Positions 13,953 through 17,180 of a stretch of 32,983 nucleotides of DNA are shown in pieces. How positions within the stretch are numbered: the stretch's first letter is position 1; each line of letters begins with the position of its first letter. The DNA is from Alicyclobacillus sp. (lineage in GTDB: Bacteria > Bacillota > Bacilli > Alicyclobacillales > Alicyclobacillaceae). The notes under the pieces were generated by a model. That model was not told the DNA's origin. It ran no database searches and saw nothing but the letters and a program-made list of their open reading frames with translations. Where the stretch lies: assembly GCA_023511725.1 (NCBI GenBank), contig JAIMAY010000004.1:1-32983 (forward strand), written 5' to 3'. Both the position numbers and the translations under genes were made by a program.

Positions 13953-14178
13953 GGGTCGGCGCTGCGGCGGCCCCGGCGGAGCGAATAAGCGGGTCTTTCC
14001 ACCTTATGTGGCGCTGCGGCGGTTTCGGCGGGGCGGATAAGCGGGTTTTTCCGCCTTATGCGGCGCTGCGGCGGCTTCGGCGGGGCGGATAAGCGGGTTT
14101 TTCCGCCTTATGCGGCGCTGCGGCGGCTTCGGCGGGGCGGATAAGCCGGTTTTTCCGCCTTATGCGGCGCCATGGCAC
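13953..14178 (+). repeat. 52-bp repeat array upstream of gapB, four copies
   Basis: The core (G)GATAAGCGG-GTTTTT-CCGCCTTAT recurs at 13983, 14035, 14087 and 14139, with an exact 52-bp period. The first copy is diverged (GAATAAG...ACCTTAT); the next two are identical. The core is palindromic: ATAAG and CGG pair with CCG and CTTAT, with one bulged C, around a T-run loop. The linker is CGGCGCTGCGGCGG-(C/T)TTCGGCGGGG. A matching linker without a core precedes the first copy. The same element is found inverted at 15575-15797, on the other side of gapB. It is not a CRISPR and does not end in a U-run. Confidence 0.92.
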
Positions 14179-14367: not shown

Positions 14368-15498
14368 ATGACAACTCGTGTGGCTATCAACGGTTTCGGC
14401 AGGATCGGCAGGATGGTGTTCCGGCGCGCGGCGGAGATGCCGGATGTGGAAGTGGTGGCGGTCAACGGCACGGCGGATCCGGAAACACTGGCGCACCTCC
14501 TGAAGTACGATTCGATTCACGGGACGTGGGATCAGTCGGTGGAGGTGACGGACGGCGGATGGATGCTGGGGAACCGGTTCATTCGGCTGTTCTCCACGCG
14601 GGACCCGCACGAGTTGCCGTGGGGCGAGCTGGGTGTCGATGTGGTGATTGAGGCGACCGGCAAATTTCGCACGCGCGAGACGGCGGGTGTGCACCTGGCG
14701 CAGGGGGCGCAACGGGTGATCATCACGGCGCCGGCGAAGAGCGAAGCTGACGCGGACTTGACGGTTGTGATGGGTGTGAACGAGGAACAGTTCAATCCAG
14801 ATCAGCACTTCATCATCAGCGGAGCATCGTGCACGACGAACTGCCTCGGCCCGGTGGTGAAGGTGCTGCACGAGGCGTTCGGCATTGAAAGCGGGCTCGT
14901 GACGACGGTGCACGCGTATACCAACGACCAGCGGAACCTCGACAATCCGCACAAGGACCTGCGGCGGGCGCGTGCCTGCGGGCAGTCCATTATCCCGACG
15001 ACAACGGGTGCGGCCAAGGCCATCGGCCTCGTCATCCCCGAGCTTCGCGGTAAGCTCAACGGTCTCGCGCTGCGGGTGCCGACGCCGAATGTGTCCATCG
15101 TGGACCTGGTGGCGCAGACCGAGCGGCCGGTCACGCGCGAAGCGGTGAACGATGCGCTGCGGCGGTTTGCGGAGGGTCCGCTGGCGCACGTGCTGGGCTA
15201 CACGGAGGAGCCGCTGGTGTCCGTCGATTTCAACGGGGACGAAAGGTCCGCCATCGTCGACGGCGCCTCCACGATGACCCTCGGCGATCACTCGCTCAAA
15301 GTCCTCGCCTGGTACGACAACGAGTGGGGCTACTCCTGCCGCATTGTCGATCTCGCCTCCCACATCGGCCGCACCGTCACCGCGCGCCGTCAGGGTGGCT
15401 CGCGCCGCGATGCGTCGGCCGGCACCGAGCGCGCGCTGGCCTCGCGCCGCACGATGGAGGCGCAGACCGCGGCCGACGGCGCCGTGCTGTCGCGCTGA
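14368..15498 (+). CDS. gapB: Glyceraldehyde-3-phosphate dehydrogenase, GapB type
   Basis: 376 residues. NAD(P)-binding INGFGRIGR is at 8-16; the active site is SCTTNC (Cys155) with His182. TVHAYTNDQRNLDNPHKDLRRARAC and RVPTPNVS are standard. After the second beta strand the protein has NGTADPETLAHL, not the NDLTD of NAD-dependent GapA. The loss of that Asp and the general match to B. subtilis GapB point to the NADP-using gluconeogenic type. About 35 residues beyond the normal end (from TVTARRQGG...) are Arg/Ala-rich and unusual. ATG 14368 has AGAGGGG about 10 nt upstream. CcpN-like boxes precede it, and inverted 52-bp repeat arrays flank it. Confidence 0.92.
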   Translation: MTTRVAINGFGRIGRMVFRRAAEMPDVEVVAVNGTADPETLAHLLKYDSIHGTWDQSVEVTDGGWMLGNRFIRLFSTRDPHELPWGELGVDVVIEATGKFRTRETAGVHLAQGAQRVIITAPAKSEADADLTVVMGVNEEQFNPDQHFIISGASCTTNCLGPVVKVLHEAFGIESGLVTTVHAYTNDQRNLDNPHKDLRRARACGQSIIPTTTGAAKAIGLVIPELRGKLNGLALRVPTPNVSIVDLVAQTERPVTREAVNDALRRFAEGPLAHVLGYTEEPLVSVDFNGDERSAIVDGASTMTLGDHSLKVLAWYDNEWGYSCRIVDLASHIGRTVTARRQGGSRRDASAGTERALASRRTMEAQTAADGAVLSR

Positions 15499-15574: not shown

Positions 15575-15797
15575 TGCTCGCCCCGCCGGCTGCGTCTCGG
15601 CGCTGGATAAGGCGAAAAAACCGCCTTATTCGCGTCGGTGGGGGCGCGATCGCGCTGGATAAGGCGAAAAAACCGTCTTATTCGCCCCGCCGGCTGCGCC
15701 TCGGCGCTGGATAAGGCGAAAAAACCGCCTTATTGGCCCCGCCGAAGCCGCCGCTGCGCCGGATAAGGCGAAAAAACCGCCTTATTCGCGCCGCCAC
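15575..15797 (-). repeat. 52-bp repeat array downstream of gapB, four copies, inverted
   Basis: The 29-bp core GGATAAGGCG-AAAAAA-CCGCCTTATTCGC recurs at 15605, 15657, 15709 and 15761, again with a period of exactly 52 bp. Cores differ at only one base each at most. ATAAGGCG and CGCCTTAT are perfectly complementary around an A6 loop. The three 23-bp linkers differ in sequence (GTCGGTGGGG..., CCCGCCGGCT..., CCCGCCGAAG...) but not in length. Its reverse complement aligns without gaps to the unit at 13953-14178, at roughly three quarters identity. The A-run recurs about every five helical turns. No U-run follows, so it is not a normal terminator array. Confidence 0.93.
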
Positions 15798-15980
15798 CGC
15801 GCGCCCTGTCACCGCGCACCCTGCCTAGGCCGTCGCCTCCGCGCCGCCGCCCCGCCGAAGCAGCCGTCGCGCCCCGGCATCGCCATCGTTCCGCCCATCC
15901 TGCCCGCGCCCGATCCGGCCCCTCAGCCGGCTCGGGCGCTTTCCTTGTGTCCGCCACCCGACTTTTGTAAGCTAATACGG
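15798..15980. other. Intergenic, no feature recognised
   Basis: GC-rich sequence between the repeat array and the cysteine desulfurase. TTGTGT and TAAGCT spaced by 17 bp just before the ribosome site could be a weak promoter, but it would leave almost no leader. Likewise 15499-15574, after gapB, holds only a G-run and short ACGGACGC direct repeats. Confidence 0.3.
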
Positions 15981-15995: not shown

Positions 15996-17180
15996 GTGGA
16001 ACTGTACTTCGACACGGCGGCGACGACACCGCTGCTGCCGGAGGTGCGCGAGGCCATCGCGGAGGTCCTCGACGTGTACGGGAATCCGTCGTCGCTGCAC
16101 CGCAAGGGCATGGAGGCGGAGGAGCGGTTAACGCGGGCGAGATCGGCCGTGATCCGCTGTCTCGGCGTGCAGGATGGGCGCGTGGTGTTCACCGGCGGTG
16201 GCTCGGAGGCCAACAACCTGGCCATCTTCGGCACGGTGCGGCGGTTCGCGCAGCGCGGGCGGCACGTGGTGACGACGCGCATCGAGCACCCGTCGGTGTT
16301 GGAGGCGTTCCGCGCCCTCGAGCGGCAGGGTTGGTCGGTGACGTATGTGGCGCCGGATGCGGACGGTGTGGTGCCGGCGGAACGTGTGCTGGCCGCGGTG
16401 CGCGACGATACCGTGCTCGTCAGCATGATGCACGTCAACAACGAGACCGGCGCGATTCAGCCGGTGGAAGCTGTGGGGGCGGCGTTGCGGGATAGGCCCA
16501 CCGTCATCTTCCATGTGGACGGCATCCAGGCGTTCGGCAAGATCCCGGCGTGCGCAGCGCGCGCAGGGGCGGACCTGTACACGGTGTCCGGGCACAAAAT
16601 TGGCGCGCCCAAAGGCGTCGGTGCACTGTGGCTGCGGCCGGGGCTGGACATTGAGCCCCTCGTGTACGGTGGGGGCCAGGAGTTCGGGCTGAGGTCGGGG
16701 ACGGAGAACGTGATGGGCATCCATGCGCTGGGCGTCGCGGCGGAGCGGGCGGCCGCCGAGGTGGAGACGGCGTGGACGCAGGTGCAGGCGCTGTGCGATC
16801 AGCTGCTGGCCGGGCTGCAGGAGGTGCCGAACATTGTGCTGCGCCGGCCGCGTCAGGCATCGCCTTACATCGTCGGCGTCAGCTTCCCCGGCTTGCGCGG
16901 CGAAGTGCTGGTGCATGCCTTCGAGCAGGAGGGGCTGTATGTGTCCACCGGCTCCGCCTGTTCCACGCGCGGCGGACATGCCCGCGGTAGCCATGTACTC
17001 GAGGCGATGGGCTGGTCCGACGAGGAGCGCACCGGTTCCGTGCGCATCTCCCTCGCGCGCTGGCACACCGCGGCGGACGTGGAAGCGGCGCTGGCTGTGA
17101 TGCGCAGACAGGTGACATGGCTGTACGAACTGCTCGGTCCTGCAACACCATCGCGCGGGCGCGCTCGGCGCAGAGGCTGA
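15996..17180 (+). CDS. Cysteine desulfurase (NifS/IscS family) paired with thiI
   Basis: 394 residues, a PLP enzyme that takes sulfur from cysteine as a protein-bound persulfide. The start YFDTAATTPL, IEHPS (His98), HVDGIQAFGK (Asp175), the PLP lysine in SGHKIGAPKG (Lys201) and the sulfur-accepting Cys in STGSACST (Cys322) are all present. GTG 15996 is chosen because AAAGGAGGGG is 6 nt upstream; the longer frame has no support. thiI begins 21 bp after its stop. That pairing is the same as nifZ-thiI in B. subtilis, where the desulfurase serves 4-thiouridine formation. No Fe-S scaffold gene is nearby. The C-terminal tail is Arg-rich. Confidence 0.9.
   Translation: MELYFDTAATTPLLPEVREAIAEVLDVYGNPSSLHRKGMEAEERLTRARSAVIRCLGVQDGRVVFTGGGSEANNLAIFGTVRRFAQRGRHVVTTRIEHPSVLEAFRALERQGWSVTYVAPDADGVVPAERVLAAVRDDTVLVSMMHVNNETGAIQPVEAVGAALRDRPTVIFHVDGIQAFGKIPACAARAGADLYTVSGHKIGAPKGVGALWLRPGLDIEPLVYGGGQEFGLRSGTENVMGIHALGVAAERAAAEVETAWTQVQALCDQLLAGLQEVPNIVLRRPRQASPYIVGVSFPGLRGEVLVHAFEQEGLYVSTGSACSTRGGHARGSHVLEAMGWSDEERTGSVRISLARWHTAADVEAALAVMRRQVTWLYELLGPATPSRGRARRRG

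Follow-up and report, generated by a model that had tools for sequence, protein, structure and literature searches.

The STAR elements of Staphylococcus aureus are short GC-rich repeats found at regular intervals between genes. Lrp/AsnC-type octamers place four dimers on helically phased DNA sites, and recombinase core sites share a general layout of two arms around a short centre. REP sequences are palindromes that carry a GTAG or CGTC tag at one end, according to one account (PMC3733652). Another describes BIMEs as containing regularly spaced REPs, with units that alternate in orientation, and report that BIME-2 binds gyrase (PMC2817692). A 74-bp family, Bhal-1, is listed for Bacillus halodurans in a further source (PMC2267715).

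The repeat unit at the locus described here is a 23-bp dyad, ATAAG-N13-CTTAT, in which the half-sites ATAAG and CTTAT lie 18 bp apart, start to start, and two 9-bp arms are arranged about a 5-bp centre. Its copies recur at spacings that change between species in steps of one turn of the DNA helix.

Layout of the Two Arrays

Two arrays of this dyad are present in the window, the whole stretch of 32,983 nucleotides of Alicyclobacillus sp. DNA that was analysed. Eight dyads match there with up to three mismatches, compared with 0.06 expected from shuffles. The downstream array (15607..15785, − strand) has dyads at 15607, 15659, 15711, and 15763, giving a period of 52 bp; its T-rich loop is on the − strand, and one of its dyads carries an internal C-to-T change. 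It sits between gap (14380..15498, + strand), which reads as glyceraldehyde-3-phosphate dehydrogenase from its translation alone and has an uncertain start codon, and a gene that reads, again from sequence alone, as a NifS-like cysteine desulfurase (15996..17180, + strand), located 3' of the array. The upstream array (13985..14163, + strand) has dyads at 13985, 14037, 14089, and 14141, the same 52-bp period, and the opposite orientation, with gap lying between the two arrays. Delimited as a tandem repeat, it spans 13957-14170. The first-pass annotation placed the repeats at 15605-15797, which captures the downstream array and leaves out this sister array. A 15-bp tandem repeat of about two copies adjoins the downstream array at 15795-15823, and a CRISPR-like array identified by Tandem Repeats Finder, with a 37-bp repeat recurring about every 72 bp, occupies positions 112-2271 of the window.

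The downstream array had been described as four nearly identical 29-bp cores separated by 23-bp linkers of equal length and unlike sequence. The cores (starts 15605, 15657, 15709, and 15761) are indeed 93-100% identical, and the constancy of linker length is borne out by a dyad spacing of exactly 52 bp throughout the array. The linkers do differ strongly, but they are not unrelated: linkers 1 and 2 are 57% identical, 1 and 3 are 48% identical, and 2 and 3 are 70% identical, whereas letter-shuffled versions of linkers 1 and 2 are on average 34% identical (95th percentile 48%). The window linkers are diverged relatives of one another. Counted between the 23-bp dyads, each is 29 nt long: linker 1, which contains CGATCG, at 15630..15658, linker 2 at 15682..15710, and linker 3 at 15734..15762. 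Because linkers related by descent could hold their length without selection, three linkers made a weak argument for selection on spacing. The conclusion itself, that selection would keep the dyad spacing and not the linker sequence, is nonetheless supported by relatives that have other linkers and other dyad interiors.

Copies in the Host Genome

The dyad pattern with two more letters fixed, ATAAGNNGNNNNNNNCNNCTTAT, matches the host genome 159 times with at most one mismatch, while the same pattern read backwards matches twice. Array structure was studied in the window and 19 stretches picked around known arrays, and further arrays may exist. These stretches hold 144 dyads, recognised by a criterion slightly unlike that of the ATAAGNNGNNNNNNNCNNCTTAT scan, in 24 clusters, one of which is a lone dyad. 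Neighbouring dyads in them (half-sites with up to 2 mismatches, dyads no more than 160 bp apart) are spaced 52 bp in 129 of 140 intervals; the remainder measure 51 bp (four), 53 bp (four), and 62, 103, and 104 bp (one each). Judged by their loop letters, the host arrays run head to tail save for two units in the stretch L063, and they differ in length by whole units. A second linker subfamily, with a period of 51-52 bp, is found in L063, L064, and L061 (host contigs C29, C11, and C5), and the L064 array reaches the contig end.

Dyad Spacing in Related Genomes

A two-dyad pattern with the gap left free (spacings 37-67 bp) matches nine stretches in named genomes: Paenibacillus contaminans (one), P. 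humicus (three), P. cymbidii (two), Cohnella nanjingensis (one), and an uncultured Clostridia bacterium (two). The Paenibacillus and Cohnella pairs are spaced 51 or 50 bp, and their linkers do not resemble the window linkers. In the two Clostridia pairs the spacing is 57 bp, which is off phase, and 50 bp, and they may be unrelated to the element. When spacings of 32-62 bp are left free, 8 of 398 Bacilli genomes match, the host included, and the element is thus patchy across Bacilli. The seven other matching genomes hold 78 pairs; the 29 that were listed are spaced 50 bp (2), 51 bp (22), 52 bp (1), 61 bp (2), and 62 bp (2).

The geometry is best seen in a sample of 1.2 Mb, made up of 400 kb in 20 stretches from each of three relatives, G015, G396, and G415 (60 stretches). 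Four of the 20 stretches of G015 and four of the 20 of G396 were chosen to include known pairs, so densities there are not genome averages; for G415, the initial 20 kb of each of contigs C1-C20 was taken. In these genomes, the separation of the words ATAAG and CTTAT peaks at 18, the dyad itself, and at 33, 51, and 69. Genome-specific peaks are found at 61 (G015), 72 (G396), and 62 (G415), along with sums at 112, 113, 123, and 164, where the expected count per word distance is 0.06-0.23. With at most one mismatch, the sample contains 72 dyad spacings in the range of 24-130 bp: 45 at 50-52 bp, 20 at 61-63 bp, three at 72 bp, three at 113 bp, one at 123 bp, and no other values, those of 113 and 123 bp being sums across a missed dyad. 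Four permuted motifs yield no spacings at all in the same 1.2 Mb. Without the eight chosen stretches, 55 spacings remain (34 at 50-52 bp, 17 at 61-62 bp, 1 at 72 bp, and 3 at 113 bp), 53 of them from the single genome G415. The Rayleigh R of the 72 spacings is 0.95-0.96 at periods of 10.3-10.5 bp, and these spacings are not independent because copies in one genome share descent. Counting each value once per genome (12 values, some of them sums) gives an R of 0.89-0.91 at 10.4-10.5 bp.

Larger spacings follow the same steps. A search of 11 whole genomes with the gap free at 59-89 bp returns 18 matches in five genomes, all at 61-63 or 72 bp: 61 (4), 62 (10), 63 (1), and 72 (3), a few of these being duplicated copies. 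Dyad pairs at 51 bp (up to 2 mismatches) occur in 10 of 41 family genomes, with 368 matches compared with 2 for the backwards control. Most are in G415 (189), G015 (74), and G001 (57), and the matches of three genomes that have one or two each may be due to chance. None of the 41 family genomes matches at the off-phase spacing of 46 bp. Length changes in steps of 10-11 bp, the pattern proposed in the first-pass annotation as the mark of selected spacing, are therefore what the relatives display, at 50-52, 61-63, or 72 bp. The 52-bp period of the host is 1 bp off the 51 bp of its relatives, and a stricter scan with two inner letters fixed matches the host alone among 61 genomes, 60 of them relatives.

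An extension of the element beyond Bacilli was rejected. Two of 398 phylum genomes, a set that included 16 Bacilli, match at 51 bp with up to three mismatches, and at this setting the phylum-wide matches outside Bacilli are background because the backwards control, also 2, equals them. Within one genus, a 74-bp two-dyad stretch is letter-identical on opposite strands of two genomes (G035:C236:10204-10277 and G036:C1:698251-698324), of which G035 has a single match and G036 has twenty; transfer or contamination is possible.

Viral DNA also matches the two-dyad pattern, in 31 stretches with 34 pairs (each place counted once) at spacings from 33 to 62 bp. The commonest spacing is 45 bp, at eight places, while two pairs are at 51 bp and two at 52 bp. 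Pairs of ATAAG-N13-CTTAT at exactly 45 bp are found in the viral stretches L173, L177, L180, L181, L184, L185, L191, and L194. A viral origin was set aside, since viral spacings centre elsewhere and no link to the 51-bp element is seen.

Four-Dyad Elements

Both window arrays consist of four dyads spaced 52-52-52 bp. Three relatives also carry four-dyad elements, of the form 51-61/62/72-51 bp. These were examined as frames in which the outer spacings are fixed at 51 bp and the middle spacing is free from 24 to 109 bp, over 400 kb per genome. The middle spacing is 62 bp in 19 frames and 61 bp in 4 frames of G415, 61 bp in 4 frames of G015, and 72 bp in 3 frames of G396. Rarer middles, with one or two frames each, measure 43, 91, 92, and 100 bp in G415, 63 bp in G015, and 62, 81, and 82 bp in G396, and at least one of the listed frames is a shifted reading of an adjoining element. 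The middle gap varies between species by about one helix turn.

In G415, short tandem repeats hem the elements at loci L138-L157 (e.g., L142 17104-17289 and L143 65-251). When flanks of 60 bp are scanned for tandem repeats at periods of 4-18, the 40 flanks of G415 have a mean tandem score of 17.3 compared with 5.2 for 736 other intergenic 60-mers. No such excess is found with 10 flanks each in G015 (5.7 versus 5.2) and G396 (5.7 versus 8.3).

Genomic Placement

The arrays are extragenic. With genes called by an in-house script, all 24 host clusters lie outside called genes, as do all 32 clusters of two or more dyads in relatives. Solitary dyads are divided, 14 of the 21 lying outside called genes and 7 inside. 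A hand tally of the 10 host arrays that lie between co-directional genes puts the T-rich strand with the genes in five and against them in five, so there is no strand preference in these 10 arrays. Four host gaps are convergent and four are divergent, and 6 of the 24 clusters have a called gene on one side only. The clusters of relatives occupy tandem gaps (15), convergent gaps (7), divergent gaps (3), and stretch edges (7).

The neighbouring genes share no evident theme. The 20 host flanking proteins that were scanned have varied functions; two are MarR-type regulators, one is a DDE transposase, and none is a recombinase. Comparison of 186 flanking proteins links 25 pairs from different genomes, of which several belong to common enzyme families and a few are seemingly orthologous, and no shared neighbour stands out as a candidate binder.

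A Proposed Model of Phased Binding Sites

Spacings of about 51, 61-62, and 72 bp are helix-turn steps, which suggests a protein complex whose sites must lie on the same side of the helix. Dyad spacing follows the helical repeat with the exception of the 57-bp pair of the uncultured Clostridia bacterium. The arrays are probably helically phased sites for a putative oligomeric DNA-binding protein, with a structural or regulatory role and not one in transposition. Each array would be one copy of a dispersed, intergenic element that acts at the DNA level and offers several dyad binding sites. Dyads in helix phase would seat dimers of one oligomerising protein on the same DNA face, and the assembly may serve to organise the nucleoid, form loops, or insulate adjacent genes. 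We infer protein binding, the oligomeric state of the protein, and its structural or regulatory role, and our confidence is highest for the phasing and much lower for the function.

More tentatively, the element could mark a previously undescribed nucleoprotein particle of Bacilli. Such a particle would consist of four dimers aligned along a single face of about 180 bp of DNA and would occur at many places between genes in some species. It would work like a nucleosome or as a looping unit, with a conserved geometry and a drifting sequence. The portion of the literature that was covered, which includes little from subscription journals, yielded no description of an ATAAG/CTTAT element. Sequence is the usual basis for classifying dispersed palindromic repeats. 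In this element, a half-site of 5 bp persists from one genus to another along with a geometry that varies by single helix turns. Such a pattern can be searched for computationally as the signature of a DNA-bound oligomer, and it lets the role of repeats as scaffold or passenger be probed.

Alternative Explanations

The alternative that survives best, itself unlikely, is that the dyads are REP/BIME-like sequences moved by a REP-associated tyrosine (Y1) transposase, with the regular spacing a by-product of copying. The element is dispersed, mostly intergenic, palindromic, high in copy number, arrayed in units, and patchy between species, as REPs and BIMEs are, and BIMEs are described as containing regularly spaced REPs and, for BIME-2, as binding gyrase (PMC2817692). 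The host genome has no match to Y1_Tnp (PF01797), although the assembly, with 76 contigs and 97.7% completeness, may have missed such a gene. Among genomes classed by a strict dyad pattern, PF01797 is matched in 6 of the 12 that carry the element and in 9 of the 14 that lack it. These results disfavour a RAYT as the agent. Copying also leaves the helix-turn steps between species unexplained, and the head-to-tail order of the host arrays, two L063 units excepted, stands against a BIME-like arrangement.

The host linkers bear on a neutral origin, in which a mobile miniature element or tandem repeat would keep its linker length through common ancestry and rare indels. There are 129 host linkers of 29 nt, 111 of them distinct; they share a common GC-rich column consensus, with CGATCG in 45 of the 111, and their mean identity is 80% within an array and 62% between arrays. 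From this consensus and identity the linkers are therefore diverged copies, and such homology is what a neutral repeat would leave. The neutral reading also gains slightly, and the main reading loses slightly, from the fact that nearly all the sampled spacings of relatives come from G415 once the chosen stretches are removed. Sequence and length have nevertheless changed unequally: parsimony on a tree of 129 units, with units of other length excluded from the substitution count, requires at least 319 linker substitutions compared with eight intervals changed by 1 bp and one 62-bp interval. Moreover, species with unlike linkers share a spacing of about 51 bp or differ from it by whole helix turns. 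A neutral repeat is quite unlikely.

Action at the RNA level is very unlikely. The dyads would then be tandem hairpins in transcripts, serving as a terminator, an mRNA stabiliser, or a small RNA, and RNA folding would hold the linker length. Host dyads are able to form short hairpins, yet positions 6 and 18 could pair in only 32% of the 47 distinct dyads compared with 45% when shuffled, that is, they are mismatched more often than shuffled letters. Interior complementarity does not rise above the shuffled level in the host, and among the 11 distinct dyads of G015 and the 11 of G396 any excess is no more than chance would give. Of the six interior pairs in the 20 distinct dyads of G415, a single one, positions 8-16, covaries (85% versus 55% shuffled, p 0.008), as a stem would also produce. 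The stems show little covariation. Rfam at the gathering score finds no match in the window, its two arrays included, and in 6 of the 60 stretches from relatives its only matches are to a c-di-GMP-I riboswitch, SRP RNA, and tRNA, none of them located at an element. Divergent gaps are occupied as well. Steps of about 10.5 bp are characteristic of B-DNA. The lack of strand preference in the 10 arrays, the little covariation, the absence of Rfam matches, and the steps of about 10.5 bp favour sites that are read as double-stranded DNA.

It is most improbable that the dyads are synapsis sites for a recombinase or transposase, phased for a synaptic complex in arrays that grow and shrink by recombination: the 9-bp arms and 5-bp centre recall the layout of a recombinase core, arrays differ by whole units, and relatives have discrete four-dyad elements, but the 20 scanned flanking proteins supply one DDE transposase and no recombinase, and visual inspection of flanks revealed no target-site duplication.

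Comparison with Known Systems

The element resembles REPs and BIMEs in that all are dispersed intergenic palindromes in arrays, present in high copy (159 dyads in the host), and patchy between species. The element differs in its ATAAG/CTTAT half-site and in spacing that steps by helix turns across genera. Its host units are mostly head to tail, which departs from the described alternation of BIME units (PMC2817692). The flanks of host dyads, read by eye only, have no apparent constant GTAG or CGTC. Bhal-1 is comparable by length alone, its 74 bp equalling the span of a dyad pair spaced 51 bp.

As in CRISPR arrays, near-identical palindromic repeats are separated by intervening sequence of equal length. 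The host linkers differ from unrelated spacers in that they have a consensus in common and are not all unique (111 distinct among 129). STAR elements are likewise short repeats placed regularly between genes, and are not known to be built from ATAAG/CTTAT dyads or spaced in helix-turn steps. The geometry of the Lrp/AsnC-type octamer is also similar, and on that geometry alone its four dimers would match the four dyads of each window array.
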